From NCBI RefSeq assembly GCF_012843435.1, contig NZ_JABAFC010000001.1, positions 248,001 to 312,000 of the forward strand: 64,000 nucleotides of DNA, given 5' to 3'. The notes under the pieces are model-generated. The model searched no databases. It worked only from the letters and a program-made list of their open reading frames with translations, and was not told the DNA's origin. Both the position numbers and the translations under genes were made by a program. Of the stretch, positions 26,848 to 53,432 are shown piece after piece. The DNA is from Psychrobacillus sp. BL-248-WT-3 (GTDB lineage Bacteria; Bacillota; Bacilli; Bacillales_A; Planococcaceae). The number at the start of each line of letters is the position of its first letter. Position 1 is the first letter of the stretch.

Positions 26848-26853
26848 AATAAC

Positions 26854-27782: not shown

Positions 27783-27784
27783 AG

Positions 27785-31215: not shown

Positions 31216-31443
31216 ATTTATTTGCTGTTTTAATAACATACAGGTAGTAATAGTTGCTTTAATGGATAGAAATGCATTTGGGATCTGACGTTGTCATATA
31301 CAGTCTTGAAGGTAGTGAGATTGTGAAGAAACGATATTTTTTTTGAACTAAAGGGCGGTAGTACAGTTCGTGGGGTTGCTTCGGTAACTTTTTTTTAGAT
31401 TTAAAGTAAGTGGGCTGAAATATGTAATAAAGGGGAGATGAAA

Positions 31444-32040: not shown

Positions 32041-33006
32041 GTGTATATTTTAGATCAAACGAACGAATGGGATGTAGATTTACCTGAGTTTGATGTGCGG
32101 AATGACGAAATTAAAAATCAACGAGATATGCTTTTTGATTATTTTATTATGAAGGCCTCTACAGTGGATATATTGGTATACCAAGGTTTAAATGAAGAGA
32201 AGACGATAAAGCAAATGAAGAAGCTTTTTAAAAATAAGCAAATAAGAACGGAACATAGAGCTAGATGCTACAAGTTCTTTTTAGATGATACTGCAAAAAA
32301 ATGGATTTTAGCAAATAATTTAAGTGAATGTACAAGCGTTATATATGATAAAAATGAGAATGTGATTGCGGATTTTAATAGACATGTGTCGTTTTATGAA
32401 AAAGTGTCTATGGCAAATAGTATATTACTGGTCAAAGAGCTACCAATTCAAATTGAAATTTATAACCGTGAAATAGATAGGGAATGGGAAATAGAGTTAC
32501 AAGACCAGGCTAAATCTTATTATATTAGCACGCACTATGATTGGATTGAGAAACTTGCTTTTGAAACAATTGAAAACCTTTATTTTTATCCATTGTCTAT
32601 CTATATTGAAAAGCACGATGGAGAGCAGTATCAAATGCAAAAGGATTGGGCGAAGTATGGTGTAGAATATATAGACTCCGGGCAGCGGGTGTTTACCCTT
32701 TCGTCAAAAGGAATGTATCATGCGGAAGTCCCAGGCTTCTTTTTAACAGTAAAAAACACCGATGAATTAAAAGTTGTGTTCGAAGAGCTATTTTACTTAG
32801 CCTATCAAAACGATGCATTCATCGTGTCTCAAAATAAGCTGAATATACGAACTGGCCGTAATCGAATTTTTAAATCAGGTGATGAAATCATTCTAACATT
32901 CGATCATGATGCACAAGGGATTGTCCTACAGAGTGTACTAAATTTTGAAAAAGTAAAAAGCTTATTTACAAATTGTATGATTACACATATACAACAAGAG
33001 AGTTAA
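32041..33006 (+). CDS. Protein of unknown function (321 aa)
   Basis: Not recognised. It is soluble, with no signal peptide. An N-terminal part rich in charged helices (KTIKQMKKLFKNKQIR) is followed by a beta-rich middle (VSMANSILLVKELPIQIEIYN) and a C-terminal part (FEELFYLAYQNDAFIVSQNK). No catalytic motif stands out. It starts with GTG behind GAGGTGA. It lies about 90 bp after the 168-aa unknown gene in the same direction and upstream of paaX. Confidence 0.5.
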   Translation: MYILDQTNEWDVDLPEFDVRNDEIKNQRDMLFDYFIMKASTVDILVYQGLNEEKTIKQMKKLFKNKQIRTEHRARCYKFFLDDTAKKWILANNLSECTSVIYDKNENVIADFNRHVSFYEKVSMANSILLVKELPIQIEIYNREIDREWEIELQDQAKSYYISTHYDWIEKLAFETIENLYFYPLSIYIEKHDGEQYQMQKDWAKYGVEYIDSGQRVFTLSSKGMYHAEVPGFFLTVKNTDELKVVFEELFYLAYQNDAFIVSQNKLNIRTGRNRIFKSGDEIILTFDHDAQGIVLQSVLNFEKVKSLFTNCMITHIQQES

Positions 33007-33225
33007 GATGGCATAGAAATTATATACAGAATGACGAACAATATGTAGTAGTTCTTTCTGAATCTCGTGCAATAATATGGGCCCGACAATATTGTGAAAA
33101 CTAATTCAGAAAATTAAATTATTTTCGGGGAAATAATTAGTATACCCTTATAACAAATTAAAGAAAAAATTCTGAAAAAGTGATATATTATTAATTAGGT
33201 AAAATAGAAATGAGTGATTAATAAC

Positions 33226-34107
33226 ATGTCTAATACACAGTCAATGATCTTCACTGTTTATGGTGACTATATAAGGCACTACGGCAATAAAATATGGATT
33301 GGAAGTCTGATTCGCCTACTCAAGGAATTCGGACATAATGAGCAATCCGTACGCGTAGCAGTTTCTAGAATGATGAAACAAGGTTGGCTTGAGTCTGAAA
33401 AACAAGGTAATAAAAGCTATTATTTTCTAACTCATCGAGGCAAAGTAAGAATGGAAGAAGCGGCAAATCGAATATTTAAGCTTATGCCTAACGAATGGGA
33501 TGGGAAATGGCGTATGTTAATGTACACAATTCCCGAGGAAAAAAGACAAATAAGAGATGAGCTTCGAAAAGAGCTGCTTTGGAGTGGTTTTGGAAGTTTT
33601 TCTAGTGGTTGCTGGATCTCTCCGAATAATCTAGAAAAAGAAGTCAAATTTTTAATAGATAAATATGAAACACATGAGTATGTTGATTTTTTTGTATCTG
33701 ACTATAAAGGTCCGAAAGAGAACCAAGCATTGGTTGAAAAAAGCTGGCCACTTACTGAAATAGAAGCAAAGTACAAGGAATTTATAGCAGCTTATAGTCA
33801 TCAGTATATTGTGCATCAGAGTATGATAAATGATAATAAAATGTCCTCTGCAGACTGTTTTGTAGAACGAACAAGGTTAGTCCATGAATACCGAAAGTTT
33901 CTTTTTATTGATCCTGGTCTTCCGAAGGAGCTACTGCCAGAGATCTGGAACGGAAATCATGCTGCTCTTTTGTTCGAGCAATACTATAAATTACTTGCAC
34001 CATTAGCAAGTGAATTTTTTGAGGGTGTTTTCCAAGAGGATAATGATTTGAAAAGAAGAGATGAAGAATATGATGTTAATTATCACCCTCTATTAAAAGA
34101 ACTCTAG
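33226..34107 (+). CDS. paaX: PaaX family repressor of phenylacetate genes
   Basis: 293 aa, the usual PaaX size. The N-terminal PaaX winged-helix domain (SMIFTVYGDYIRHYGNKIWI ... HNEQSVRVAVSRMMKQGWLE) is followed by a ferredoxin-like middle (WRMLMYTIPEEKRQIRDELR) and the C-terminal PaaX_C region. In E. coli PaaX represses paa genes and is released by phenylacetyl-CoA. It stands 4 kb from the paa cluster and 3.6 kb before the HPA operon, so it may control either or both. ATG 33226 is taken, with GAGTG upstream. Confidence 0.9.
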   Translation: MSNTQSMIFTVYGDYIRHYGNKIWIGSLIRLLKEFGHNEQSVRVAVSRMMKQGWLESEKQGNKSYYFLTHRGKVRMEEAANRIFKLMPNEWDGKWRMLMYTIPEEKRQIRDELRKELLWSGFGSFSSGCWISPNNLEKEVKFLIDKYETHEYVDFFVSDYKGPKENQALVEKSWPLTEIEAKYKEFIAAYSHQYIVHQSMINDNKMSSADCFVERTRLVHEYRKFLFIDPGLPKELLPEIWNGNHAALLFEQYYKLLAPLASEFFEGVFQEDNDLKRRDEEYDVNYHPLLKEL

Positions 34108-35678: not shown

Positions 35679-36647
35679 ATGATATACGTTTGTAAGTTGT
35701 TAGGTATTTCCTATCCAATCATTCAGGGAGGGATGGGAAACATAAGTAACGCTCAGCTTACAGCTGCAGTGTCTGAAGCTGGAGGATTAGGTACAATTGG
35801 TTGTGGTACGATGACACCCAAAGAAGTGGAACAAATCATACTAGTAACAAAAGAGATAACCAAAAAAAGATTTGCTATTAATATTGCCATTAATGTTTCA
35901 CCATTTGTAGAAGAACTGATAGAACTTGTTATAAAACACGAAGTTCCGATTGTATCTTTATCGGCTGGAAACCCAGCACCCTATATTCCTATTTTACAAG
36001 CAAACGGGATTAAAGTGATGACGGTTGTCGCTTCTGTAAAACAGGCGTTAAAATCAGAACAAGCAGGGGCAGATATGATAATTGGTGAAGGTTTTGAAGC
36101 TGCAGGTATTAATTCTAGTCTTGAATTGACCACCTTCACGTTAATTCCTCAGCTAGTAAAACATGTGAGGGTACCTGTTATTGCGGCAGGAGGAATTGGT
36201 GATGGGAAAGGATTGGCGGCCGCACTATCTCTAGGTGCTAGTGGGGTGCAGCTAGGAACAAGGCTAGTGGCGACGAAAGATGCTCCCTTTCATGAAATGT
36301 ATAAAAAAAGAGTAATTCAAGCTGGTGATTTAGATACGCTATTGCTTGGGCGAAGTGTTGGTAGAATTCGGAGAGTGTTAAATACTCCTTATGCGAGTCG
36401 GTTGATTGACCGAGAAAAACAGGGGCTGACTATCGATGATTATTTAAAAAGTACGACGGAGGAGCACCATAAAAAAGGAGCGATAGAGGGAGACCTAGAA
36501 AGTGGTTTTTTAAACAGTGGCCAAATAGCTGGTTTGTTGGATGATCTGCCTTCAGTAGAAGATTTGTTCAATAGAATGATGATCGAAGCAGAACAAAAAC
36601 TTCAAAATGATTTAATAGAAATTAGACAATTAAAAAAAGAAAGCTAA
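35679..36647 (+). CDS. Nitronate monooxygenase/FabK-like flavoprotein
   Basis: 322-aa FMN-binding TIM-barrel protein. Family marks are PIIQGGMGNIS at the N-terminus, IAAGGIGDGKGLAAALSLGASGVQLGTR near residue 170, and LGRSVGRIRRVLNTPYA. The catalytic segment that normally reads ExxxGGH is EGFEAAGINS here, so the usual His is absent and the reaction may differ from nitronate oxidation or enoyl-ACP reduction. It lies between regulators of the aromatic clusters, so a role in aromatic catabolism is possible. Confidence 0.75.
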   Translation: MIYVCKLLGISYPIIQGGMGNISNAQLTAAVSEAGGLGTIGCGTMTPKEVEQIILVTKEITKKRFAINIAINVSPFVEELIELVIKHEVPIVSLSAGNPAPYIPILQANGIKVMTVVASVKQALKSEQAGADMIIGEGFEAAGINSSLELTTFTLIPQLVKHVRVPVIAAGGIGDGKGLAAALSLGASGVQLGTRLVATKDAPFHEMYKKRVIQAGDLDTLLLGRSVGRIRRVLNTPYASRLIDREKQGLTIDDYLKSTTEEHHKKGAIEGDLESGFLNSGQIAGLLDDLPSVEDLFNRMMIEAEQKLQNDLIEIRQLKKES

Positions 36648-36674: not shown

Positions 36675-37319
36675 TTAACTTCTCATTTTAAAGGCATCAA
36701 GCGTTTTTAGTTTGTGATTTCTAGCATACTGCTCGATAGAAGAACTGCTCGCCTTATCCTCTAGTAGTTGTATAAGGGTCTCATGTTCTTCAATGGATTG
36801 GGGGGTTCTCTTAGGATAAAACGTAAAACCAGCCTGTCTCACTATATCTAGTCGCCCCCATGTTTCTTCAATATTTTTTATTAGTAATTCGTTTGGACAA
36901 AATGAGTAAATATGAAAATGGAATTCTCTATTAAGTGCTCCTAGTTTATCTAATTCATAGTTATCAAGCATGATTTTCATTTCTCGGTTAATTTCTTTTA
37001 ACTTTGTAATACCATCAGCTGTAATGCTTGTGGCGCTAATAGCCGTAGCATAGCCCTCAAGCAAAGCGAGTACTTCCAATGATTCCTTATATAGTTGATT
37101 GTCAATTCCTTTGACGATTGCTCCAATATTAGGTTTAAATTCAAGAAGCTTTTCTGATTCGAGCTGATGAATTGCTTCCCTGACGGGAATATGACTAGAG
37201 CCGACCTCCTTTGCAATTTGATTGATAATGATTCGTTGACCAGGTGCGTAAGTACCATCTACTATTCTTGTACGAATAACTTTGTAAGCATATTGGCGTT
37301 TATTCATATTAGTTTTCAT
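36675..37319 (-). CDS. GntR family (FadR/FCD) transcriptional regulator
   Basis: About 214 aa. The N-terminal winged helix is RIIINQIAKEVGSSHIPVREAIHQLESEKLLE at residues ~30-60, and the C-terminal all-helical FCD domain includes LEGYATAISATSITADGI and REFHFHIYSFC, with His residues that often bind a metal. It is divergent from the thioesterase/PheDH operon and is its most obvious local regulator; FCD regulators usually sense carboxylic acids. The start is uncertain: ATGs at 37340, 37319 and 37307 all lack a clear ribosome site. Confidence 0.85.
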   Translation of the reverse strand: MKTNMNKRQYAYKVIRTRIVDGTYAPGQRIIINQIAKEVGSSHIPVREAIHQLESEKLLEFKPNIGAIVKGIDNQLYKESLEVLALLEGYATAISATSITADGITKLKEINREMKIMLDNYELDKLGALNREFHFHIYSFCPNELLIKNIEETWGRLDIVRQAGFTFYPKRTPQSIEEHETLIQLLEDKASSSSIEQYARNHKLKTLDAFKMRS

Positions 37320-37342
37320 AATAATCGAATTGTATATCATTT

Positions 37343-37619: not shown

Positions 37620-37634
37620 TTGTAAGCGCTTCCA
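37620..37634 (+). promoter_or_regulatory. CcpA cre site
   Basis: TTGTAAGCGCTTCCA fits the cre consensus WTGNAANCGNWNNCW at every position. It lies between the candidate promoter and the first gene, where CcpA can block elongation, as expected for a catabolic operon under carbon catabolite repression. Confidence 0.7.
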
Positions 37635-37686
37635 AAAGTGTGATGTGTGTTCCTTAAAAACTAAATGATTAAAGTAGGTGAGTTAT

Positions 37687-38082
37687 ATGTTAGAAGGCTT
37701 AGAGATTGGGAGTAAAGAGACCATTCAAATCACAGTTACAGAATTGATGTTTGCTGCATTTGAAGGAGAAGTAGTACACCCTGTCTATTCGACGGTGAGT
37801 ATGACATATCATATGGAATGGGTTTCTAGGAAAATAATTTTACCTTTTTTAAGCGCTGAACAAGAGGGAATGGGAGCTGCAGTTAAGATCAAGCATGTTT
37901 CACCCGCTCCTTATGGAAGTCTTGTTACTTTAACTGCTACTGTTACAGAGCTTCGAGACAATAAAGTAATAACAAAAGTGGTAGCTGAGAGTCAAGCTGG
38001 TGTTATCGGTCTGGGTGAGGTAACTCAGGTTATTTTGCCAAAGGCTACAATAAAAACAAAATGGAACGAGGCTACAGCGTAA
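37687..38082 (+). CDS. FlK-like hotdog-fold acyl-CoA thioesterase
   Basis: 131-aa hotdog protein resembling fluoroacetyl-CoA thioesterase FlK. The catalytic triad positions of that family appear intact: Thr in YSTVSM, Glu in HMEW and His in KIKHVSPAP. It should hydrolyse a short or aryl acyl-CoA. As first gene of the PheDH/2-oxoacid dehydrogenase operon, a fitting substrate is 4-hydroxyphenylacetyl-CoA, giving free 4-hydroxyphenylacetate for HpaBC. That substrate is an inference. ATG 37687 follows TAGGTGAG; GTG 37678 overlaps that site. Confidence 0.75.
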   Translation: MLEGLEIGSKETIQITVTELMFAAFEGEVVHPVYSTVSMTYHMEWVSRKIILPFLSAEQEGMGAAVKIKHVSPAPYGSLVTLTATVTELRDNKVITKVVAESQAGVIGLGEVTQVILPKATIKTKWNEATA

Positions 38083-38120
38083 GAATGTACACTGAAATTG
38101 CCTAAGGAGGAACTGATCTA

Positions 38121-39260
38121 ATGCTAGCTGAAAGATTATCAATGACAAAAGAATTTGAGCTTTTCGATCGAATGGCTTCTCATGAGCAGGTTGTATTTTG
38201 TAATGATCCCACTACTGGCCTACGAGCGATTATCGCTATCCATAATACGACCCTTGGTCCAGCTCTCGGTGGATGTCGAATGCAACCTTATAATAGTGTG
38301 GAAGATGCGCTCGAGGATGTTCTAAGGCTTTCAAAAGGTATGACGTATAAGTGTGCAGCAGCAGATGTGGACTTTGGGGGAGGAAAAGCAGTCATTATTG
38401 GTGATCCTAAAAAGGATAAATCACCGGAGCTATTCAGAGCATTTGGTCAATTTGTCAATTCACTTGGCGGCCGTTTTTACACAGGTACAGACATGGGCAC
38501 GACGATGGAAGATTTCATACATGCGATGAAGGAAACTAATTTCATTAATGGACTACCTGAGGCCTATGGTGGTGGAGGGGATTCATCGATCCCAACAGCA
38601 GCTGGAGTTATAAATGGATTAAAAGCTACAAATCGAACACTGTTTGGAGATGAAGAACTCGGAACGAAAAGCTATGCAATTCAAGGACTAGGAAAAGTAG
38701 GATATAAAGTTGCTGTTAGTTTACTAGAAGCTGGAGCGAACCTTTTTGTAGCTGATATAAATGACGAAAGCCTTCATTCCATTCAGCAGATTTCAGCAAA
38801 TTTAAAAGGAAACGTAAAGATTGTATCAAATGATGAAATTTACTCTACTGATGCCGACGTTTTTATTCCTTGTGCACATGGTGGGATTATAAATGATATG
38901 ACGATTCCTAAGTTGAGAGTAAAGGCTATAGTAGGTTCTGCCAACAATCAATTACTAGCAGATCGACATGGAAGAATGCTCAGAGAAAAAGGAATACTAT
39001 ACGCACCAGACTATATCGTCAATGCAGGCGGTCTGATTCAAGTAGCTGATGAGCTATATGGCTTTAACCATGAGCGAGTTCTAGCTAAAACGAAGCAAAT
39101 ATATCATACCTTATTAGAGGTATATAAGGAGGCTTCCCTAACCGGAAATACAACGGAAGAAGCAGCAAATACGATGTGTGAAAAGCGTATTAAGAACAGA
39201 AAAGCTCGCAATAACTTTTATTCAGCACCATTAAAGCCAAAGTGGAGTATTCGCAAATAA
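38121..39260 (+). CDS. pdh: Phenylalanine dehydrogenase
   Basis: 379-aa NAD-dependent amino acid dehydrogenase, the same length as PheDH of Lysinibacillus sphaericus and very similar by eye along its length. Catalytic residues are K77 and K89 ([20 protein letters not shown]) and D124 (GTDMGT). The segment [12 protein letters not shown] is the PheDH version of a region that reads GNPSPVTAYGV in leucine dehydrogenases. The Rossmann motif is [12 protein letters not shown]. It deaminates Phe, and usually Tyr, to the arylpyruvate, which feeds the dehydrogenase complex encoded next. Confidence 0.9.
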
Positions 39261-39280
39261 GTCGTTTGGAGGGAAGCTAA

Positions 39281-40336
39281 GTGAAGCATAATTATCCTTT
39301 AAAAAGAATAATGGATGATGAAGGGACACTACTAGATGAACAATTCAAAGAACAAATTGAGGAAAGCTTAGTCAAAGAACTTTATTTTCACATGCTCCGC
39401 ATTCGAACGTTCGACCGGAAGGCTATTAACCTACAGAGACAAGGTCGATTAGGAACCTATGCACCATTTGAGGGCCAAGAAGCAGCTCAGGTTGGTAGCG
39501 CGCTTGCATTAACGGAAGATGACTGGGTTTTTCCGACCTATCGTGATCATGGGGCAACTTTAACTTTTGGTAAGAGTATGGCCAAAACTTTCTTATACTG
39601 GAATGGAAGAATAGAGGGATGCTTATCCCCAAAGAATAGAAACATATTCCCTCCTGCTGTACCAATAGCTACTCAGCTTCCCCATGCAGCTGGAGCAGCC
39701 TGGGCAGAAAAAAGAAAGGGCACAAAAAATATAGCAATCGCTTATTTTGGTGATGGTGCTACATCCGAGGGAGATTTCCATGAGGGCTTAAACTTTGCTA
39801 GCGTCTTTAAAGTACCTGCTATCTTTTTCAATCAAAACAATGGCTTTGCAATTTCTGTTCCTACTGAAAAACAGATGAATTCAGAAACCATTGCACAAAA
39901 AGCAGTGGCTTATGGAATGGCTGGTGTTAGAGTAGATGGAAATGATAGCCTTGCTGTATATTTTGAAACGCTTAAAGCAGTAGAGAAAGCACGAGCAGGG
40001 GATGGACCTACCTTAATAGAGGCTGTCACATGGAGAAAAGGTGCTCATACGACTGCAGATGACCCATCCAAATATAGAGATGCTACCATGGGAGACCATG
40101 TTGTAGATCCCCTTCTAAGACTGGAGTTATTTATGAAAAACTACGGTTACTGGAATGAAGAATGGTTGCAAGCTACTACTGAAGAGATTAGTAATGAAAT
40201 AGATGTAGCTATAGAAGAAATGGAAAGTTTTCCAGCTCCAAAAGTAGAAGATGTGTTTAACCATGTGTTTGCCGAAATGCCTGCTCAGCTAACCGAACAA
40301 AAAGATGCTTATCTTGCATATTTAGGGAGGCAATGA
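39281..40336 (+). CDS. 2-oxoacid dehydrogenase E1 component, alpha subunit
   Basis: 351 aa. Thiamine diphosphate binding is shown by GDGATSEGDFHEGLNFA near residue 162 and the closing QNNGFAIS. The phosphorylation-loop-like region (YRDHG; ADDPSKYRD) is of pyruvate/branched-chain E1alpha type. It decarboxylates a 2-oxoacid together with E1beta. The position directly after phenylalanine dehydrogenase makes phenylpyruvate and 4-hydroxyphenylpyruvate the natural candidate substrates. It starts with GTG behind GGAGGGAA; E1beta follows 3 nt after the stop. Confidence 0.88.
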   Translation: MKHNYPLKRIMDDEGTLLDEQFKEQIEESLVKELYFHMLRIRTFDRKAINLQRQGRLGTYAPFEGQEAAQVGSALALTEDDWVFPTYRDHGATLTFGKSMAKTFLYWNGRIEGCLSPKNRNIFPPAVPIATQLPHAAGAAWAEKRKGTKNIAIAYFGDGATSEGDFHEGLNFASVFKVPAIFFNQNNGFAISVPTEKQMNSETIAQKAVAYGMAGVRVDGNDSLAVYFETLKAVEKARAGDGPTLIEAVTWRKGAHTTADDPSKYRDATMGDHVVDPLLRLELFMKNYGYWNEEWLQATTEEISNEIDVAIEEMESFPAPKVEDVFNHVFAEMPAQLTEQKDAYLAYLGRQ

Positions 40337-40339
40337 TCA

Positions 40340-41356
40340 ATGACCCAGTTAAAACAATCAAGTGCTTCACAAGAGACAACAAAGCAAATGACATTAATCC
40401 AAGCAATAAACGATGGGATGCGCGTTTTACTAGAGGAGGACGAATCTACACTGGTGCTTGGTGAAGATGTTGGTAAAAACGGTGGCGTTTTCCGAGCTAC
40501 TGAGGGACTCCAAGAAAGGTTCGGTGTTGATAGAGTAATAGACACTCCTCTTTCTGAATCAGGAATAATAGGAACCTCTATTGGATTAGCTGTAAATGGA
40601 TTTAGACCAATAGCTGAAATTCAGTTTTTAGGGTTTATTTATCCAGCATATGAGCAAATCATGACACATGCTTCGAGAATTCGGATGAGGTCGATGTCTC
40701 GTTTTACAGTGCCAATGGTTATTCGTGCACCTTATGGAGCAGGGATACGTGCACCCGAAATACATTCAGACAGCACCGAAATCTTATTTACTCATATGCC
40801 TGGTATTAAGGTAGTCTGTCCTTCCAGTCCATATGATGCAAAGGGATTGTTAATAGCTGCAATGGAAGATCCCGATCCAGTTCTTGTCTTAGAGCCTATG
40901 AAGAACTATCGATCGGTGAGAGAGGACGTACCAGTAAATAAATATAAAGTGGAAATTGGAAAGGCGAAGGTTGTCCAAGAAGGGGCAGATGTAACCCTTA
41001 TTGCTTGGGGAGCAATGGTTTCAATCGCCCAAAAAGCTGCTGAGCTAGCAGGAAAAAAAGGAATACATTGCGAAATAATAGATTTACGTACGCTTTATCC
41101 ATTAGATCGGGAAGCAATCGCCAAATCTGTGCAAAAAACAACTAGAGCAGTAATCATTCATGAAGCTCATCCTACAGGTGGGTTAGGTAATGACATCGTA
41201 TCTATTATTAACGATACCTCATTCTTATATTTGCGAGCACCTGTTGAGAGAATTACAGGTTTTGATGTTCCTGTTCCATTCTTTACTTTAGAAGAGCATT
41301 ATCTACCTACTCCCGCTAGAGTGATGGAGGGGATTGATAAAGTAATTCATTTTTAA
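40340..41356 (+). CDS. 2-oxoacid dehydrogenase E1 component, beta subunit
   Basis: 338 aa. The transketolase pyrimidine-binding domain has LGEDVGKNGGVFRATEGL near residue 40 and DTPLSESGIIG. The C-terminal domain has the conserved IDLRTLYPLDREAI and HEAHPTGGLGNDI. It forms the alpha2beta2 E1 with the preceding gene. There is a short extra N-terminus (about 15 residues) before the usual start of homology. GGGAGG lies 9 nt before the ATG. Confidence 0.9.
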   Translation: MTQLKQSSASQETTKQMTLIQAINDGMRVLLEEDESTLVLGEDVGKNGGVFRATEGLQERFGVDRVIDTPLSESGIIGTSIGLAVNGFRPIAEIQFLGFIYPAYEQIMTHASRIRMRSMSRFTVPMVIRAPYGAGIRAPEIHSDSTEILFTHMPGIKVVCPSSPYDAKGLLIAAMEDPDPVLVLEPMKNYRSVREDVPVNKYKVEIGKAKVVQEGADVTLIAWGAMVSIAQKAAELAGKKGIHCEIIDLRTLYPLDREAIAKSVQKTTRAVIIHEAHPTGGLGNDIVSIINDTSFLYLRAPVERITGFDVPVPFFTLEEHYLPTPARVMEGIDKVIHF

Positions 41357-41368
41357 GGAGGGTTTTGA

Positions 41369-42571
41369 ATGATTGATGTGAAATTACATGATATAGGAGA
41401 AGGAATGACTGAAGGAGAGGTTATCCACTATTTAGTTAAAGTGGGTGATAGGGTGCAAACGGACCAGCCTTTAGTTGAAGTCCAAACAGATAAAATGGTT
41501 GCTGAACTTACCTCTCCTTGTACTGGTATTGTCAAAGAGATTCGAATTGCTGCTGGAGAAATGGTAAAAGTAGGTACCAGTCTTCTTTCCTTAGAAAGTG
41601 AGGGCGGAGGGGGTTCCTCAACCGAGCAGTATTCAAAGGATATATCAGTAGAGACTAGCAGTAACCAGCCCTTAAAAGAAGATAAATCCTTAGAGTTTAC
41701 TTATAAGAGAATACTAGCTACGCCTTACACAAGAAAAATAGCTAGGGAACATAACATCAATTTAGAGGATGTGACCCCTTCAGATCCTTCAGGAAGAATT
41801 ACAGAAGAGGACGTTATGAGGTTTATAGATAATAAAACAGAGAAGAAGATTATACCTGAGAAGATTGTTGTCCAGACGCAACCAGATGAAATACCTTATA
41901 AAGGAATTAGAAAAAAGATTGCTGAAAATATGAAGAAATCACTCTTTACCATCCCACACGTAACCCATTTTGACGAAGTGAATATGACTAATCTATTAGA
42001 AATGAAGGCACAGATGAAAGCCACTGGTCATTCCATAAGTATTCCAGCCTTTCTCTTGAAAGCACTTGTCATTTCCTTAAAGGATTTTCCGATATTCAAT
42101 GCCGAGCTTGACGAAGAAAATAGTCGGATACTCCTCAAGAAAAGCTATCACATAGGCATAGCCACCAACACAGAAAACGGACTGATTGTCCCTGTACTCC
42201 ACGATACCGATAAAAAATCTCTCATACAAATAAATCAAGAAATAAAAGAATTAACACAAAAGGCCATAGCAGGAAAGCTTCAACCATCAGAAATGCAAAA
42301 CAGCACATTTACAGTTAGTAATGTAGGACCTTTAGGCAGCATAGCCGCCACTCCTATTATCAATTATCCAGAGACTGCATTAATCGCTTTTCATAAGACT
42401 AAAAAACAGCCAATCGTTAATGCGCAGGATGAGATTGTTATTGGACACATCATGAATCTATCCATGTCATTTGATCACCGCGTAGCAGACGGTGCAACTG
42501 CAATTGCATTCACGAATCGTTTTTCAAGTTTAATCGAACATCCACATAAACTAATTTTGGAGATGATTTAG
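41369..42571 (+). CDS. Dihydrolipoamide acyltransferase (E2)
   Basis: 400 aa with three parts. A single lipoyl domain has the modified Lys in VEVQTDKMVAEL near residue 43. The peripheral-subunit-binding domain is ATPYTRKIAREHNINLEDV near residue 118. The catalytic domain starts near residue 170 and has DHRVADGA, with catalytic His and Asp, near residue 370. Acidic/Ser-rich linkers connect them. It moves the acyl group to CoA, here predicted to form arylacetyl-CoA. AAGGAGG precedes the ATG. Confidence 0.92.
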   Translation: MIDVKLHDIGEGMTEGEVIHYLVKVGDRVQTDQPLVEVQTDKMVAELTSPCTGIVKEIRIAAGEMVKVGTSLLSLESEGGGGSSTEQYSKDISVETSSNQPLKEDKSLEFTYKRILATPYTRKIAREHNINLEDVTPSDPSGRITEEDVMRFIDNKTEKKIIPEKIVVQTQPDEIPYKGIRKKIAENMKKSLFTIPHVTHFDEVNMTNLLEMKAQMKATGHSISIPAFLLKALVISLKDFPIFNAELDEENSRILLKKSYHIGIATNTENGLIVPVLHDTDKKSLIQINQEIKELTQKAIAGKLQPSEMQNSTFTVSNVGPLGSIAATPIINYPETALIAFHKTKKQPIVNAQDEIVIGHIMNLSMSFDHRVADGATAIAFTNRFSSLIEHPHKLILEMI

Positions 42572-44008
42572 ATGGTTGTAGGAGAAATAAGCCATAAACG
42601 AAATCTGATCATTATTGGGGGTGGACCAGGAGGATACAGCGCGGCTATACGAGGTGCTCAGCTTGGCCTTTCCGTTACTTTAATTGAGCAAAAAAACCTG
42701 GGAGGAGTGTGCTTAAACGAGGGTTGTATACCTTCAAAGGTTTATACTTTTGCAGGCTCGAAACGTTCCGAGTTGGATCAGCTAGCTATGATTGGTATTG
42801 GTGCGGATCGAAGAGATATAGATATCCAGAGATTGCTTGAATATCAAAAGGATGTAATCGGACAGCTGAGGTCAGGTGTAGAGAGGCTTTGCCAGGCGAA
42901 TAAGGTAGAAATCGTTCAAGGGAAAGCTACGTTTATAGCAAAGCATAAAATTGGTGTGGAAAATGGTCACCAATTCGATATGTATGAGTTTGACCAAGTA
43001 ATTATCGCTACGGGCAGTAAAAATATACTTCCTAGCTATATAAAATCTACGGGTCCTCATGTGCTATATCCGTTTGAGTTTTTTCAACTAAGCAAGCTGC
43101 CTGAACATGCAATCATTGATGGTCAAGACTATATTGCCCTAGAAGCGGCCTCATGCTTTGCAGCGCTTGGCACACAAGTTACCTTATTAATAGATTCCGA
43201 TACTGGGCTACCTTTTGATGAATCGGTCAATAAGGAGTTATTAAGAATATTTAAAAAGAGAAAAATAAAAGTAATAGAGAAAAAAGAGACTATTGGTACT
43301 CAGAATGATATAAACGGTATCTCTGTTACGGTGTTAACCAATCAGCATAAAGAATTGACAATTGAAGCTTCTTATTTAGTCGTGCCTGAGCTTAGGGTCT
43401 CAAACATAGAAGAGCTTGGGTTGAAGCGTCTGGGCATGGAGTTAGATGTAAATGGATTTATCCAAGTAAATAATCGTTTGGAAACTTCTATCAATAACAT
43501 ATATGCAGTTGGAGATGTAACAGGTGGTCCACTGCTTGCTTGGAAGGCTATCAAGCAAGGAAAAGCGGCAGTATCATTCATAGCTGGAGAAAAACCAGAG
43601 GTGGACTTAACAATCGTACCCACTTGTGCTCATACAATCCCCCCGGTAGTATCTGTTGGTTTAACGGAACAACAGGCAAATAACCTGGGACTTTCTGTAC
43701 GTACAAGTAGATTTTCCCTTGGCAGTAATGGTTATTCCACAATTACTGGGAAAAGAGATGGATTTATAAAGGTAATCTCTGATTCTACGACCGAAGTAAT
43801 TCAAGGAATTCATATGATTGGCGATGGCGCTATCGAATTGTCAGGCTCCTTTTTACAACTATTAGAGATGGCTGCGAAGGAGGAGGATATAAAATTTCCA
43901 AATTACGTGCACCCAGGCATAAATGAGGCACTACTGGAATCTGTGGAAGGATTGCTTGGACAAGCGATTCATCTAGCTCCAGTAAAGAAGGAAGTGGTAA
44001 TTGGTTAA
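42572..44008 (+). CDS. Dihydrolipoamide dehydrogenase (E3)
   Basis: 478-aa FAD-dependent disulfide oxidoreductase that reoxidises the E2 lipoyl group. The FAD site is IIIGGGPGGYSAA, and the redox disulfide is GGVCLNEGCIPSK near residue 45 (Val replaces the common Thr). The second FAD motif is NIYAVGDVTGGP near residue 310 and the C-terminal catalytic His-Glu is in HPGINEALLE. A dedicated E3 in the operon completes the complex. It starts directly after the E2 stop. Confidence 0.9.
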   Translation: MVVGEISHKRNLIIIGGGPGGYSAAIRGAQLGLSVTLIEQKNLGGVCLNEGCIPSKVYTFAGSKRSELDQLAMIGIGADRRDIDIQRLLEYQKDVIGQLRSGVERLCQANKVEIVQGKATFIAKHKIGVENGHQFDMYEFDQVIIATGSKNILPSYIKSTGPHVLYPFEFFQLSKLPEHAIIDGQDYIALEAASCFAALGTQVTLLIDSDTGLPFDESVNKELLRIFKKRKIKVIEKKETIGTQNDINGISVTVLTNQHKELTIEASYLVVPELRVSNIEELGLKRLGMELDVNGFIQVNNRLETSINNIYAVGDVTGGPLLAWKAIKQGKAAVSFIAGEKPEVDLTIVPTCAHTIPPVVSVGLTEQQANNLGLSVRTSRFSLGSNGYSTITGKRDGFIKVISDSTTEVIQGIHMIGDGAIELSGSFLQLLEMAAKEEDIKFPNYVHPGINEALLESVEGLLGQAIHLAPVKKEVVIG

Positions 44009-44076: not shown

Positions 44077-45051
44077 GTGAAGAAGAGATGGAAGAGTCTT
44101 TTAACTGTATTAGCTAGTGCATCCTTGTTACTTGCTGCCTGTGGAGATGAGGTAGATGAAGCTTCTTCGTCCAAAACCTATAATATTGGAGTTACTCAAA
44201 TTGCGGAGCATCCATCCTTAAATGCAGCTTATGACGGCTTTAAAAAGGCTTTAGAGGATGCAGGGATCGAGGCAGAATACGAGTTTCAAAATGCGCAAGG
44301 AGACGGTAATAATAACACAACTATAGCTACAAACTTAGTTAGCTCCAATGTAGATTTGATCTTTGCAAACTCAACAGGAAGTGCTCAAGCTGCACTTAGT
44401 GCAACGCAGGACATTCCGATTGTATTTACATCTGTTACAGATGCAGTTGGTGCAGAGCTAGTCGAATCGATGGAAAAGCCAGGTGGTAATGTCACGGGTA
44501 CTATTGATTCCCACCCGGACGCTATTGCTAATACTATGAAATTTTTAAAAGAAGAGCTTGGTGCAACGAAAGTAGGAATGGTATTTAACTCCGGAGAACA
44601 AAATTCACGCTCTCAGGTAGATTCCGTTAAAGAGTTATTGGAAGACATGGATATGACGGTTGTAGAAGCCTCTGTAGCTACAACTGCCGATGTAAAACAA
44701 GCAACGGAATCACTTATAGGAAAAGTCGATTCTATGTATATTATTACAGATAACACAGTTGTTTCCGCTCTAGAGTCGGTAATCTCGGTAGCAAATGAAA
44801 ATAAAATTCCTGTGATGGTGGGAGAATTTGATTCGGTTAAGCGTGGTGGCTTAGGAGCATATGGATTTGAATACTTCGATATTGGTTATGAGGCTGGTCA
44901 GATGGCAGTCAAAATATTAAAAGGTGAAAGTAAGCCTGCTGATATCCCTGTTCAAGTACCTCAAAAGCTTAAGCTAATTATGAACAAAGAAACTGCAGAT
45001 ACAATCGGTGTTGATATTAAAGACGAGTGGAAAGCTGAAATGAGCGAATAA
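44077..45051 (+). CDS. ABC transporter substrate-binding lipoprotein (TrpX-like)
   Basis: 324 aa. The lipobox LLAACG at residues ~18-23 shows a lipid-anchored extracytoplasmic protein. The PF04392-type fold is recognisable: GVTQIAEHPSLNAAYDGFKK, LIFANSTGSAQAA, PIVFTSVTDAVGA and MVGEFDSVKRGGLGAYGF. This family includes tryptophan/tyrosine-type binding proteins. Together with the permease and ATPase genes that follow, and the aromatic catabolic genes around, uptake of Phe/Tyr or an aromatic acid is likely. It starts with GTG behind GGAGGGGGA. Confidence 0.82.
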   Translation: MKKRWKSLLTVLASASLLLAACGDEVDEASSSKTYNIGVTQIAEHPSLNAAYDGFKKALEDAGIEAEYEFQNAQGDGNNNTTIATNLVSSNVDLIFANSTGSAQAALSATQDIPIVFTSVTDAVGAELVESMEKPGGNVTGTIDSHPDAIANTMKFLKEELGATKVGMVFNSGEQNSRSQVDSVKELLEDMDMTVVEASVATTADVKQATESLIGKVDSMYIITDNTVVSALESVISVANENKIPVMVGEFDSVKRGGLGAYGFEYFDIGYEAGQMAVKILKGESKPADIPVQVPQKLKLIMNKETADTIGVDIKDEWKAEMSE

Positions 45052-45068
45052 CGAGGAGGTGATTCTTT

Positions 45069-46115
45069 ATGTTTTCAGCAGTATTCGGCTCAATGGAACA
45101 AGGAATCATTTATGCGATTATGGCACTTGGAGTGTATATCTCATTCCGAGTGCTAGATTTTCCAGATCTGACGGTTGACGGTAGCTTTGTTATAGGGGCA
45201 GGGACTGCCGCTACGATGATTATACTTGGGTATCATCCAGTTTTGGCAACAACTATGGCTATATTAGCAGGCTTTATAGCAGGTTGTATGACTGGGTTGC
45301 TGCATACGAAGGGTAAGATAAACCCCCTTCTATCTGGAATATTAATGATGATTGCATTGTACTCGATTAATTTAAGAATTATGGGACTCACCTCTGAAAA
45401 CTCTATAGGTCGTCCTAATATTCCACTGTTGAATGCGGAAACCCTTTTTGTTCAGTTCCAATCATTTTGGAGTGGGCTTGGCATAGATTCCGCTCTTAAT
45501 AGCTTTTTGCAAATGCTTGGAGTAGAAAGAGTTCCATCTACATGGGGAACCATTTTTCTTATGGCTATAGTAGTAATCCTTATTAAAATCATCGTAGATT
45601 GGTTTTTAAAGACCGAGATAGGCTTAGCGATCAGAGCTACTGGTGACAATAAGAAAATGATCCGCAGTCTATCAGCCAATACAGATACTTTAATCATTAT
45701 AGGTCTTGGTTTTTCTAATGCCCTTGTTGCTTTCTCAGGGGCCTTAATCGCGCAGTACGCTAAATTTGCAGATATTGGCCTTGGGATTGGGATGATTGTC
45801 ATTGGTCTTGCTTCGGTGATTATTGGGGAAGCTATTTTTGGAACAAAAACGATTGTCCGTACAACATTAGCTGTAATAGCTGGAGCGATAATTTATCGTA
45901 TCGTACTTGCACTGGCTCTCCGTTTAAACTTTTTGGATACAGGTGATATGAAGCTTATCACCGCGGTAATTGTTATAGGAGCATTAGTGCTACCACAGTT
46001 TTTAGAAAAGAAAAGAGAGAAAAATAGAAAGGCAAAGCGACATTCTGAAAGACTTCGAGAAAACCAATCCTTATTGAAGGAGGGGCCAGCTATTGTTAAA
46101 GCTCAATCAGATTAA
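45069..46115 (+). CDS. ABC transporter permease (TrpY-like, BPD_transp_2)
   Basis: 348 aa with about nine hydrophobic segments. Family features are YIAIMALGVYISFRVLDFP-like start, the DLTVDGSF motif near residue 38, and IGLASVIIGEAIFG near residue 245, as in permeases paired with PF04392 binding proteins. A long charged cytoplasmic C-terminus (KKREKNRKAKRHSERLRE) overlaps the start of the ATPase gene. GAGGAGGTG precedes the ATG. Confidence 0.85.
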   Translation: MFSAVFGSMEQGIIYAIMALGVYISFRVLDFPDLTVDGSFVIGAGTAATMIILGYHPVLATTMAILAGFIAGCMTGLLHTKGKINPLLSGILMMIALYSINLRIMGLTSENSIGRPNIPLLNAETLFVQFQSFWSGLGIDSALNSFLQMLGVERVPSTWGTIFLMAIVVILIKIIVDWFLKTEIGLAIRATGDNKKMIRSLSANTDTLIIIGLGFSNALVAFSGALIAQYAKFADIGLGIGMIVIGLASVIIGEAIFGTKTIVRTTLAVIAGAIIYRIVLALALRLNFLDTGDMKLITAVIVIGALVLPQFLEKKREKNRKAKRHSERLRENQSLLKEGPAIVKAQSD

Positions 46116-46890
46116 TAAGCTTTTTAATGAAGCAACACCAGATGAAAAGGTAGCATTAGACCAAATTAACCTTGAGCTCCGTCCGGGTGACTTTATGACA
46201 GTCATTGGCAGTAACGGAGCAGGTAAATCAACTATGCTTAATATGATATCGGGCGCTCTATCTCCAGATTTCGGAACAATAGAGATTGAAAAAAAAGATG
46301 TTACGAAGATGCCTGAATATAAACGCTCTCAAATGATTGGTCGAGTTTTTCAGGACCCGATGGCTGGTACCGCTCCGACGATGACTATTGAGGAAAATCT
46401 TGCGATGGCCTATTCAAGAAATAAAAAAAGAAGTCTCAAAATTGGTGTCGATAAAAAAAGGCGTGAATTTTTTCGGACCTCTCTTGAAACGTTACATCTC
46501 AACTTAGAAAATCGACTAAATGCAAAAGTCGGGTTGCTGTCTGGTGGAGAAAGGCAGGCACTTTCCTTATTAATGGCAACCTTTACAAAGCCGGCCATTT
46601 TACTTTTAGATGAGCATACAGCAGCACTCGATCCTTCCAGGGCAGAACTCATTACGAGTTTAACAAAGGAACTGGTGGAAAAGGATAAGTTGACGACGTT
46701 GATGATCACGCATAATATGCAGCAGGCTTTAGATTTAGGTAATCGATTAATAATGATGGATAAAGGTCAAATCATTTTACAAATAGATGCCGAGGAGAAA
46801 AGAACTTTAACAATTAATAAGCTTATGGATGAATTCCAACGAATCCGGGGAGAGAAGTTAACAAGTGATAAAGCATTGTTATCGGTTTAA
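46093..46890 (+). CDS. ABC transporter ATP-binding protein (TrpZ-like)
   Basis: 265 aa. Walker A is GSNGAGKST near residue 37, the signature LSGGERQAL near residue 150 and Walker B AILLLDEHTAALDP near residue 172. It powers the importer formed with the two preceding genes. It starts with TTG 7 nt after AAGGAGGGG, inside the 3' end of the permease gene, so translation is coupled. The hpa genes follow immediately. Confidence 0.88.
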   Translation: MLKLNQINKLFNEATPDEKVALDQINLELRPGDFMTVIGSNGAGKSTMLNMISGALSPDFGTIEIEKKDVTKMPEYKRSQMIGRVFQDPMAGTAPTMTIEENLAMAYSRNKKRSLKIGVDKKRREFFRTSLETLHLNLENRLNAKVGLLSGGERQALSLLMATFTKPAILLLDEHTAALDPSRAELITSLTKELVEKDKLTTLMITHNMQQALDLGNRLIMMDKGQIILQIDAEEKRTLTINKLMDEFQRIRGEKLTSDKALLSV

Positions 46891-46902
46891 GGAGGTATGC
46901 AG

Positions 46903-47685
46903 ATGAATTCAGCAAGCATAAAGCTTCGTCATCTAAACGCGTTAAAAACAGTTGAGGTGGATCCTGTAACTAATTCGTTTTACTTAAATGGACAAAGAAA
47001 TGGGCTAAAGGATTACCCTGTTGCTTCACCCGTTTGTGGGACAGTGTACGGAACTATACTTAACTATAAAGAAGATCTCACAGCTATAGAAGAGCAGCTT
47101 CATCAAAAACCTTATGCTGCTCCTCCTAACGCACCTATCTTGTATATAAAACCGGCAAATACAATCAATTTTCATGGTGCTCCTATTCCTATGCCAAAGG
47201 GGTTCTCTACACTAGAAGTTGGAGCATCGTTAGGAGTAGTTATCGGTAAGAAGGCAATTGCTATAAAAAAAGAGGATGCATTTTCTTATATTGCTGGTTA
47301 CACGATTGTAAATGATGTCAGTATTCCACACGATAGTATTTTCCGACCAGCGGTGCCATACAAGGCAAGGGATGGTTTTTGTGCCATTGGACCTTGGATT
47401 ATAGATGCCAAAAATATTATGGATCCAAATTCCTTTACGATAAAGGTCTATATAAACAATGAACTCCGGTTAGAAAAAAACACGTCTACTCTAGTGCGCC
47501 CAATTGCTAGATTGCTAGAAGAAATAACGGAGTTTATGACGTTAGACGTTGGGGACCTCCTACTGGTCGGAATTCCTACAGCTTCTCCTAAAGTACACGT
47601 AGGAGATCAGATCAGAATTGATATAAGCGAAATAGGATCATTAGAAAACTATATGATGGATGAGGAAGAGGGGTGTTTCCTATAA
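46903..47685 (+). CDS. hpaG1: 4-hydroxyphenylacetate degradation isomerase/decarboxylase, N-terminal-half homologue
   Basis: 260-aa fumarylacetoacetase-family protein that matches the N-terminal half of E. coli HpaG (VCGTVYGTILNYKEDL ... YAAPPNAPILYIKPANTI ... SIPHDSIFRPAVPYKARDGF). The FAH acidic metal-binding residues are less obvious than in the partner. HpaG decarboxylates and isomerises 5-oxopent-3-ene-1,2,5-tricarboxylate. Here the two halves are separate genes with a 13-nt overlap and may form a heteromer. ATG 46903 is 6 nt after AAGGAGGT. Confidence 0.85.
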   Translation: MNSASIKLRHLNALKTVEVDPVTNSFYLNGQRNGLKDYPVASPVCGTVYGTILNYKEDLTAIEEQLHQKPYAAPPNAPILYIKPANTINFHGAPIPMPKGFSTLEVGASLGVVIGKKAIAIKKEDAFSYIAGYTIVNDVSIPHDSIFRPAVPYKARDGFCAIGPWIIDAKNIMDPNSFTIKVYINNELRLEKNTSTLVRPIARLLEEITEFMTLDVGDLLLVGIPTASPKVHVGDQIRIDISEIGSLENYMMDEEEGCFL

Positions 47686-48440
47686 AAAGAGCTAGAGTTG
47701 CATATGGTGGTGCTATTTATAATGCAAGTGAATATGACGCTAGTCTTCAGCTTGAGGATGGTAGGATTGTGAACCAGGATGAGGTTACATGGTTAACACC
47801 CCTTAACCCGCGAACAACGTTTGCTTTAGGTCTTAACTATGCCGATCATGCTGCAGAATTAGCTTTTGATGCCCCTTCTGAACCTCTTATCTTTCTAAAG
47901 GGACCTAATACATTTGTAGGTCATAACGGGTTTACCAGACGACCATCAGATATAACTTACATGCATTACGAATGCGAGCTTGCTGTTGTAATCGGTAAAA
48001 AAGGCAGATATGTAAAAAAAGAAGACGCTTACGACTATGTGAAAGGCTATAGTATAGCAAATGATTATGCATTTAGAGATTATCTTGAGAACTATTACCG
48101 ACCAAATCTTCGTGTGAAAAATAGGGATGGCTGTACTCCGCTTGGACCATGGTTAGTGGATAAGGAGGACATTTCAGATCCAATGAATCTTCCATTATAT
48201 ACGTACGTTAATGACAAGCTCGTTCAAAAGGGTAATACGAAGGATATGATATTTGATATTCCAACACTTATTGAATATATCAGTAGCTTTATGACCTTAA
48301 CTGAAAATGATGTCATTTTAACCGGGACACCTAAAGGCTCGGTGGATACTAAAGTGGGCGATCATATTGTGACCGAAATTGAAGGAATTGGTCGCCTAGC
48401 AAATACTATTATAGGTGATGAGACATTCATGAAGAGTTAA
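47673..48440 (+). CDS. hpaG2: 4-hydroxyphenylacetate degradation isomerase/decarboxylase, C-terminal-half homologue
   Basis: 255-aa FAH-family protein matching the C-terminal half of HpaG (FALGLNYADHAAEL ... PNTFVGHNGF ... YMHYECELAVVIGK). The metal-binding Glu pair lies in HYECELAVV near residue 105, then NDYAFRDYLENYYRPN and LTGTPKGSVDTKVGD. It is the likely metal-dependent decarboxylase partner of the preceding protein. It starts with GTG inside that gene behind GAGGAAGAGG. Confidence 0.88.
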   Translation: MFPIKRARVAYGGAIYNASEYDASLQLEDGRIVNQDEVTWLTPLNPRTTFALGLNYADHAAELAFDAPSEPLIFLKGPNTFVGHNGFTRRPSDITYMHYECELAVVIGKKGRYVKKEDAYDYVKGYSIANDYAFRDYLENYYRPNLRVKNRDGCTPLGPWLVDKEDISDPMNLPLYTYVNDKLVQKGNTKDMIFDIPTLIEYISSFMTLTENDVILTGTPKGSVDTKVGDHIVTEIEGIGRLANTIIGDETFMKS

Positions 48441-48458
48441 TACGGGAGGGGAATTGAT

Positions 48459-48839
48459 TTGCCTCATTTTATTGTAGAGTACACAGACAACTTAAAGGAA
48501 GACATTAATGTGGAGCAGCTATTAAAAGATGTTCATCAAATACTTATAGCTAGAAATGATACATTCCCAATTGGAGGAATAAGGTCGAGAGCAATAGAGC
48601 TAACAGACTATCGAGTGGCTGATGGGTTAGAGGATGATGCATTTGTACATGCCACATTAAAGATTGCTGCAGGTAGGTCTGAAGAAATCAAGGCAGAAGT
48701 ATGTGACGCTATATTCGAGGTTATTAAAGCTCACTTCGATGAAACGATGAATAAAAGATATTTAGCACTGTCTATGGAATTGGTTGAATTTAGTGATTCA
48801 GGAACATACAAACAGAACAATATTCATTCTCGTTTTTAA
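48459..48839 (+). CDS. hpaF: 5-carboxymethyl-2-hydroxymuconate delta-isomerase
   Basis: 126-aa CHMI of the tautomerase superfamily. After removal of the initiator Met, Pro1 (start MPHFIVEYTDNL) would be the catalytic base. The internal motif IGGIRSRAIEL and the C-terminal LSMELVEF are typical. It isomerises the product of HpaE. It starts with TTG behind GGGAGGGG and is the last gene before an 84-nt gap in the operon. Confidence 0.9.
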   Translation: MPHFIVEYTDNLKEDINVEQLLKDVHQILIARNDTFPIGGIRSRAIELTDYRVADGLEDDAFVHATLKIAAGRSEEIKAEVCDAIFEVIKAHFDETMNKRYLALSMELVEFSDSGTYKQNNIHSRF

Positions 48840-48866
48840 ATATCGTCATGCTTTAAATCATATATT

Positions 48867-48902
48867 ATTTCATATATTTTCGTTTATTTTGTTCAGAAAA
48901 TT
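48867..48902. promoter_or_regulatory. Candidate regulatory sites before hpaB
   Basis: In the only sizeable gap inside this part of the operon, ATTTCATATATT (48867-48878) is the reverse complement of the motif beside the GntR gene. TTTGTTCAGAAAATT (48888-48902) matches the CodY box at 12 of 15 positions. A secondary promoter here is possible. Confidence 0.35.
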
Positions 48903-48923
48903 CGGATTTAGGAGGTAGTAATT

Positions 48924-50408: not shown

Positions 50409-50435
50409 TAAAGATTTTCATAAAGGAGTGTATCC

Positions 50436-50918: not shown

Positions 50919-50958
50919 TTGGAGGAAGAAAATAAAGGGTTGAAAGGAGTCGAATAAA

Positions 50959-51885: not shown

Positions 51886-51903
51886 TGAAAGAAGGTGATG
51901 AAC

Positions 51904-53415: not shown

Positions 53416-53432
53416 AAAGGAGGAGAAGGCCA

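Follow-up and report, generated by a model that had tools for sequence, protein, structure and literature searches.

A phenylalanine dehydrogenase operon in Psychrobacillus predicted to convert arylpyruvates into arylacetyl-CoA without a ligase

Psychrobacillus sp. BL-248-WT-3 carries, on contig NZ_JABAFC010000001.1 of assembly GCF_012843435.1, an operon originally predicted to turn phenylalanine and tyrosine into arylacetyl-coenzyme A (CoA) esters without a ligase. We analyzed the 64,000-nucleotide stretch that contains it (contig positions 248,001 to 312,000; here termed the window, whose own numbering is used throughout). Six intact open frames on the forward strand (37678 to 44008) encode a thioesterase, a phenylalanine dehydrogenase (PheDH) and the E1α, E1β, E2 and E3 proteins of a 2-oxoacid dehydrogenase complex, with 38, 20, 3, 12 and 0 bases between consecutive genes, so that the tightly spaced series of the original prediction was borne out. 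The thioesterase (37687 to 38082) is of the FlK-type hotdog kind (Pfam FlK, 110.1 bits against a gathering score of 27), and its nearest solved structures are PDB 2cwz and FlK itself; its frame opens at a GTG at 37678, and the preferred ATG at 37687 is probably the start. PheDH (38121 to 39260) was placed in the Glu/Leu/Phe/Val (ELFV) dehydrogenase family by family match, alignments and a tree. It is followed by the E1α of the proposed arylpyruvate dehydrogenase complex (39281 to 40336; E1_dh match), with Thr59 instead of a pocket Phe, and by an E1β of the pyruvate dehydrogenase (PDH) type (40340 to 41356; family match, His142 conserved). The E2 (41369 to 42571) has single lipoyl, E3-binding and 2-oxoacid_dh acyltransferase domains in Pfam, and the E3 dihydrolipoamide dehydrogenase (42572 to 44008) has a CxxxxC redox pair and scored 380.5 bits against a curated cut-off of 408.8. 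The best NCBIfam matches of E1β and E2 were likewise under their curated cut-offs. By eye we recognized in the complex proteins what we take to be the thiamine diphosphate GDG...NN, lipoyl DK, HRxADG and CxxxxC motifs. With E1α, E1β, a three-domain E2 and E3 all present, the genes specify an α2β2-type 2-oxoacid dehydrogenase complex.

The original prediction had regarded the PheDH as clear. Its family match is to the ELFV dehydrogenases, and no curated model passed, the best being Trp_DH_ScyB, under its cut-off. The protein is 49% identical to the leucine dehydrogenase (LeuDH)-like protein encoded beside the branched-chain 2-oxoacid dehydrogenase (BKD) genes of the same genome. The PheDH clade was separate from LeuDH with an SH-like approximate likelihood-ratio (SH-aLRT) value of 98, yet LeuDH structures outscored the Rhodococcus PheDH by sequence. 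Gly122 and Leu305, at what are presumably PheDH-type pocket positions, were present in all nine aligned sequences, with Ala and Val in the LeuDH-like protein. Since eight non-linked homologues of 50 to 54% identity share the same Gly and Leu, we dropped this signature as a PheDH discriminator. In a passage of PMC8967036, Gly114 and Thr115 are named as pocket residues of T. intermedius PheDH; Gly122-Thr123 of the window protein was matched to this pair by motif only.

We built a quick LG+G4 tree from 122 E1α rows, several of whose branches were flagged as long. There the window E1α belonged to an 86-row clade (SH-aLRT 100) apart from the PDH and BKD clades; 81 of these rows lie beside PheDH, a count subject to selection bias in that many rows were fetched via PheDH. 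A search of the family for E1α, which is free of that bias, found PheDH beside the gene in 40 of 44 genomes. Position 59 of the window E1α aligns gaplessly with residue 85, a Phe, of human branched-chain ketoacid dehydrogenase. According to a docking paper, the PDH ligand site includes Phe61, and Phe85 of BCDH is one of the residues that bind the branched side chain (PMC12655727). This position was Phe in 14/14 PDH and 14/14 BKD rows and Thr in all 92 clade rows (86 distinct), as well as in all five PheDH-linked rows of the Thermoactinomycetaceae/Alicyclobacillaceae kind. The window protein has Thr59, Thr86 and Trp107, where the PDH rows have Phe (14/14), Gly (12/14) and Ser (14/14), and it belongs with PDH neither by clade nor by pocket residues, and with BKD neither by clade nor by Phe85. 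Position 86 precedes the Tyr that contacts the thiazolium, described as Y102α in a passage of PMC2663715. In E1β, His142 corresponds to H128β of the G. stearothermophilus PDH and was kept in 89/89 rows, and 87 of the 89 have Ala at the position of T124β, a residue that the same passage counts among those forming the H128β nest (PMC2663715).

Two further samples bear on this pocket, which is situated at an αβ' interface. The E1α of Salinicoccus sediminis (L154 and L206, the same gene), which lies beside PheDH, has Asn59, Thr86 and Tyr107 and joined the PDH clade via a long branch; it may represent an independent recruitment with convergent pocket changes. Five more E1s, chosen from 109 plasmid records with a match, had Phe (the Bacillus velezensis PDH), Thr (Haloferax and Rhodococcus ruber) or Val (Deinococcus and Nonomuraea) at position 59. 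The plasmid E1s lacking Phe weakened the Phe-to-Thr change as an aryl-specific marker; as judged from these alignments, loss of the pocket Phe marks an E1 as not PDH or BKD, and not as aryl-directed as such.

A search of the whole genome with the E1_dh profile gave seven matches; apart from the window E1α, two were of the short α2β2 kind and the remaining ones were long single-chain proteins or weak. The genome has a PDH set on contig C45 (locus L089; E1α-E1β-E2-E3) and, for branched-chain use, a LeuDH-BKD set on contig C1 (locus L083; LeuDH-E3-E1α-E1β-E2). The window E1α is 41% identical to the PDH E1α and 37% identical to the E1α beside LeuDH. Because these separate sets exist, a third complex is unneeded for pyruvate or branched chains. 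The phenylacetate-CoA ligase PaaK was not found genome-wide with TIGR02155, whose best match reached 34.2 bits against a cut-off of 646.3. This cut-off was passed by no genome of the family; 29 full-length family PaaKs still reach 607 to 642 bits, and the absence here is therefore clear. Another genome of this species, assembled as one contig (G096), likewise gave no PaaK match at E <= 1e-100, which makes an assembly gap an unlikely cause.

Across 250 family genomes, of which 244 are of good quality, we searched for PheDH (E <= 1e-120), window-type E1α (E <= 1e-135), PaaK (E <= 1e-100) and PaaA (E <= 1e-80), which were found in 40, 44, 30 and 52 genomes, respectively. E1α stood directly after PheDH in 40/40 PheDH genomes, all of which also had paaA, and the 44 genomes with window-type E1α comprised 44 with paaA and 40 with PheDH. 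All 22 genomes with paaA but no PaaK had the PheDH-E1 operon. Among the 30 with both paaA and PaaK, 18 had the operon, 4 had the E1 but no PheDH, and 8 had neither; the 18 include G153, whose PaaK match is partial and contains two stop codons. In 29 of the 40 operon genomes, paaA lay within 20 kb of PheDH. At the loci of the other 39 PheDH genomes (one of them, L067, cut by a contig end), the order PheDH-E1α-E1β-E2 was kept in 39/39, with a PheDH-to-E1α gap of -25 to 32 bases (median, 15), and given this recurrence the arrangement is not due to chance. The remaining genes vary: 33 loci have E3, 32 the FlK thioesterase, 31 the binding protein of the importer and 22 hpaB. An NSS-type transporter gene was seen by eye upstream of PheDH in L074, L077 and L079, together with the binding protein in L077; the best PDB match of the L079 transporter was 4us3, which we take to be the hydrophobic amino-acid transporter MhsT.

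Variants of the locus were also observed. In L054 a transposase-like gene (recognized by eye; 17668 to 19104, opposite strand) stands between the thioesterase gene and PheDH and may separate the promoter from PheDH. Two PheDH copies, perhaps Phe- and Tyr-directed isoenzymes, flank the thioesterase gene in L060, L062, L064, L065 and L067. The same-clade E1α-E1β-E2 genes occur without PheDH in L084 to L087 and in L088; a gene of 150 to 151 codons, of the Lrp/AsnC type (Pfam, on L084), precedes E1α in L084 to L087, and a 4HBT thioesterase gene lies near the PheDH-less E1 loci checked (L086 and L088).

When mapped on a PaaA tree, PaaK presence changed about six times, with supported branches forcing at least four of the changes, and the operon label changed twice; all PaaK-less rows were operon rows. 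Repeated loss of PaaK is the simplest reading of this tree, and G153 looks like a loss in progress. The ligase bypass that had been predicted is thus favored by the absence of PaaK here, in G096 and in all 22 PaaK-less paaA genomes with the operon, but 18 of the 40 operon genomes keep a PaaK match.

A PheDH search over named genomes gave at least 584 related stretches, from which 80 loci were kept. E1α lay within 3.5 kb of PheDH in 55 of these, so that the synteny proposed as a check of the original prediction holds both there and in all 40 PheDH genomes of the family. The 25 loci without a nearby E1α comprise one cut by its contig (L096), 15 on the LeuDH side of the tree (L161 to L175; 50 to 54% identity), seven that form one PheDH subclade, and L150 and L152 outside both groups, L150 having thioesterase and PheDH only. 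In Paenibacillus L145, the one locus of this E1-less subclade examined with curated models, the neighbors of PheDH were 4-hydroxyphenylpyruvate dioxygenase (HPPD), fumarylacetoacetase and, by a weak match, homogentisate dioxygenase; L147 resembles it by eye, and L144 is without such genes. Cytobacillus L115 has HPPD and a homogentisate-dioxygenase-like gene after the complex and retains the thioesterase. In Alicyclobacillus, Tumebacillus and Kroppenstedtia, PheDH-E1-E2 lies directly downstream of paa-type crotonase or thiolase genes, and five Exiguobacterium loci have PheDH beside genes labeled pyruvate dehydrogenase. In most loci, then, PheDH has partners that deal with arylpyruvates.

A PheDH search of plasmid records gave only matches below 60% identity. 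Several outlying loci were seen in these wider searches. In L163, L166, L168 and L169, LeuDH-side homologues stand in other operons, with next genes sized like a ferredoxin-dependent 2-oxoacid oxidoreductase; by eye, a phosphotransacylase-like protein (L163) or a kinase-like protein (L166) follows the homologue. A Deinococcus psychrotolerans plasmid (L264, 3807 to 11002) encodes a PaaK that scored 633 bits (slightly below the cut-off), a crotonase, an IclR protein, E1α, E1β, an FlK thioesterase and E2, a PheDH-less series that may be a second arrangement making arylacetyl-CoA. On a Haloferax larsenii plasmid (L263, 6420 to 10923), an aminotransferase, E1α (47.8% identical to that of the window), E1β and an EthD-family protein are encoded together, a set that may carry out the same chemistry in a haloarchaeon.

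The genes around the window operon fit the surroundings given in the original prediction, an amino-acid-type importer and hpa genes downstream and a paa cluster about 9 kb upstream. Directly downstream on the same strand is a TrpX-like ABC importer (44077 to 46890), made up of a binding protein (44077 to 45051; 249 bits against the TrpX model, below its cut-off of 390), a permease (45069 to 46115) and an ATPase (46093 to 46890). It is followed by eight homoprotocatechuate genes on the forward strand (46897 to 54416), named with curated models: HpaG-N (46897), HpaG-C (47673), HpaB (48924), a DapA-type HpaI (50959), HpaE (51895) and HpaD (53433) scored above the cut-offs, and HpaF-like (48459) and HpaC-like (50436) proteins under them. 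The paa cluster (20795 to 28987, forward strand), which has no PaaK, ends 8.7 kb upstream. Model matches identified the epoxidase subunit PaaA (20795; TIGR02156, 462 bits against a cut-off of 280), an EthD-type protein (23453) and an aldehyde dehydrogenase (25321); PaaB (21768), PaaC (22091), PaaD (22930), two crotonase-fold proteins (23755 and 24544), PaaH (26907) and a thiolase (27779) are presumptive names given by eye. Between this cluster and the operon lie a PaaX regulator (33214 to 34107, forward strand; Pfam PaaX, PaaX_M and PaaX_C), a hexapeptide-repeat, PaaY-like protein (35058; family match) and, divergently on the reverse strand, a GntR/FCD regulator (36675 to 37340; family match). 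An orthologue of the latter was in the same place only in loci L044, L045, L046, L056 and L096, and it is a possible regulator of the operon. The same interval contains a FabK/nitronate-monooxygenase-like gene (35679 to 36647), found in many loci near paaY, paaX or the operon, and, between paa and PaaX, two genes (31438 to 31950 and 32041 to 33006) with no Pfam match at E <= 0.001.

Upstream of the thioesterase gene is a putative catabolite-responsive element (cre) for CcpA, TTGTAAGCGCTTCCAA (37620 to 37635, forward strand), the sole match without mismatch in the window to the cre motif used here. With up to one mismatch there were 8 matches in the window against 3.8 expected, and 5 of 100 shuffles gave as many. 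In the relatives, scanned with a pattern one letter stricter, matches with up to two mismatches were found upstream in 28 of 39 loci against 8% in mononucleotide shuffles, the loci being related to one another. These matches suggest that the operon is catabolic and under CcpA. Scans for sigma-70 promoters and terminators gave nothing informative.

HPPD was found in none of the 250 family genomes (E <= 1e-40). An hpaB match (E <= 1e-150) was present in 38, and 25 of these are orthologues of at least 88% identity, all in operon genomes; the other 13, at 54 to 64% identity, are partly in genomes without the operon. In 24 of 25 cases (the window, 22 loci, and G241, where it is upstream of PheDH), the close orthologue is no more than about 20 kb from PheDH; that of G218 is elsewhere. 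HpaB hydroxylates free 4-hydroxyphenylacetate, and a tyrosine-derived CoA ester must therefore be hydrolysed. For tyrosine, the arylacetyl-CoA named in the original prediction is thus probably not the end product, and the thioesterase that it listed, a member of an acyl-CoA thioesterase family, would supply the hydrolysis. Since the FlK gene is present in all 22 PaaK-less genomes (the window and 21/21 loci), its product can hardly act freely on phenylacetyl-CoA. In the three thioesterase-less loci tested (L079, L086 and L088), a 4HBT-type thioesterase is encoded near the complex, which favors a conserved role. We rejected as too strong the idea that the thioesterase exists solely for hpa, because it is kept in loci without hpa.

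From the content, order and conservation of these genes we infer the substrates, the transport step and the role of the thioesterase. We consider it probable (roughly 0.77) that the operon encodes an arylpyruvate dehydrogenase complex that feeds the Paa pathway without a ligase. The TrpX-like importer would take up aromatic amino acids and PheDH would deaminate phenylalanine and tyrosine to arylpyruvates, which E1αβ, E2 and E3, with CoA and NAD, would oxidatively decarboxylate to arylacetyl-CoA. Phenylacetyl-CoA would go straight to PaaABC, and 4-hydroxyphenylacetyl-CoA would be converted by the FlK-type thioesterase to 4-hydroxyphenylacetate for HpaB and the homoprotocatechuate genes. We hold the odds to be even that the full two-branch scheme applies, namely, ligase- and decarboxylase-free catabolism of both amino acids in which one complex makes two arylacetyl-CoAs, the thioesterase releases only 4-hydroxyphenylacetate to the homoprotocatechuate route in place of HPPD and homogentisate, and PaaK, being dispensable, was lost several times.

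Several observations weigh against this interpretation. E1α passes the NCBIfam pyruvate dehydrogenase model TIGR03181 with 465.5 bits against a cut-off of 411.35, and the pocket Phe is also absent from the R. ruber E1, which has no visible aryl neighbors, and from the Nonomuraea E1, in unannotated surroundings. Of the 40 operon genomes, 4 have paaA on the PheDH contig but more than 20 kb away, and 7 have the two genes on different contigs. The PaaA tree cannot separate loss of PaaK from gain, and the association between PaaK absence and the operon is confounded by kinship: with just two changes of the operon label, a phylogeny-aware sign test on independent pairs was without power (p = 1), and the Fisher p of 5e-4, which counts relatives as independent, was given no weight alone. 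Phenylacetate could be activated by another AMP-forming ligase, and the genome has such enzymes of the fatty-acid type. The tie of the thioesterase to 4-hydroxyphenylacetate is weak, since its gene also stands in hpa-less loci and 7 of 39 loci lack it. Lastly, no motif common to the upstream regions of the operon, paaA, paaX and paaY was found, ungapped 18-mers being no better than shuffles.

Less probably, the complex might act on phenylpyruvate only and feed Paa; the thioesterase would then free CoA as a PaaI/FlK-like safety valve, and the hpa genes would serve only for external 4-hydroxyphenylacetate. The thioesterase in hpa-less loci would fit this, as would Cytobacillus L115, which keeps the enzyme even though HPPD offers tyrosine another exit. 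The lack of HPPD across the family and the closeness of hpaB to PheDH argue otherwise, and a thioesterase acting on phenylacetyl-CoA would be a one-way loss in precisely those PaaK-less strains that all carry FlK. It is unlikely that the genes encode a second pyruvate or branched-chain dehydrogenase cotranscribed with PheDH by happenstance. The TIGR03181 score would be expected of such an enzyme, and the LeuDH-BKD (bcd-bkd) operon of this genome has the same layout, an amino-acid dehydrogenase beside E1-E3 that make acyl-CoA. The bcd-bkd E1, however, belongs to another clade and has other pocket residues; the genome already has separate PDH and BKD sets, and the window-type E1α co-occurs with PheDH and paaA in 40 and 44, respectively, of 44 genomes.

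An ordinary route, in which a decarboxylase and an aldehyde dehydrogenase take phenylpyruvate to phenylacetate for an unrecognized CoA ligase and the complex serves otherwise, is similarly improbable. The aldehyde dehydrogenase of the paa cluster, two thiamine pyrophosphate (TPP) enzymes of unsettled substrate (L177 and L178) and the fatty-acid-type ligases could supply its parts; against this stand the absence of PaaK and the E1 gene after PheDH in 40/40 family genomes, and no indole/phenylpyruvate decarboxylase model was among the matches listed for five TPP enzymes at E <= 1e-60 (for two of them, the best 25 of 43 and of 28). We regard it as very improbable that tryptophan-derived indolepyruvate is the main substrate, with the complex and thioesterase yielding indole-3-acetate. 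The TrpX-like importer and the tryptophan dehydrogenase model ScyB as best match of PheDH, both under curated cut-offs, point that way, but the neighboring genes degrade phenylacetyl-CoA and 4-hydroxyphenylacetate, and the E1-less Paenibacillus PheDH adjoins HPPD and fumarylacetoacetase; all of these are phenyl-ring routes.

The arylpyruvate dehydrogenase complex proposed here resembles several known systems. It shares the Paa ring-epoxidation outlet with the PaaK-PaaABCDE pathway, of which PaaK is missing from this genome. Passages of PMC7089894 and PMC10685826 describe PglB/PglC of Streptomyces pristinaespiralis, a PDH-like E1αβ for which conversion of phenylpyruvate to phenylacetyl-CoA has been proposed as part of phenylglycine biosynthesis. 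By description, the sequences being uncompared, the likeness lies in an E1αβ acting on phenylpyruvate and a thioesterase in the operon. The Pgl system as described in those passages is biosynthetic, with no PheDH or E2/E3 of its own and with a thioesterase acting later, on benzoylformyl-CoA, whereas the window operon would be catabolic, with PheDH, E2, E3 and Paa/Hpa outlets. Indolepyruvate:ferredoxin oxidoreductase (IOR) also converts arylpyruvate to arylacetyl-CoA without a ligase and is, in a passage of PMC5109826, described for Pyrococcus and postulated for Desulfococcus; it is a ferredoxin-linked enzyme of anaerobes, whereas the complex proposed here would use lipoamide and NAD and supply an oxygen-dependent pathway. 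The adjacency of PheDH and pyruvate dehydrogenase genes is already in print: a 2008 paper on Exiguobacterium sibiricum suggested conversion of phenylpyruvate by such a pair (PMC2615787). That locus, known to us from the passage of the paper alone, is probably the same as the one here. Its authors drew a route to phenylacetate and named a phenylacetate-CoA ligase, and the passage has no bypass, thioesterase or tyrosine branch. The route of the original prediction, for which no standard pathway had been known, thus has partial precedents; a fuller account, with direct CoA-ester entry, the missing ligase, the breadth across Bacillota or the tyrosine branch, was not found in the literature within reach, which left out most subscription journals.

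If correct, the proposed pathway would provide a physiological partner for many Bacillota PheDHs and account for Paa clusters without a ligase, and it would correct a pyruvate dehydrogenase mislabel that automatic annotation will likely spread. The ATP cost of PaaK would be spared and free phenylacetaldehyde avoided, and the complex might serve as a modular source of arylacetyl-CoA for biosynthesis. PaaK-less strains would be expected to grow on phenylalanine and not on phenylacetate, and their thioesterase would have to spare phenylacetyl-CoA.

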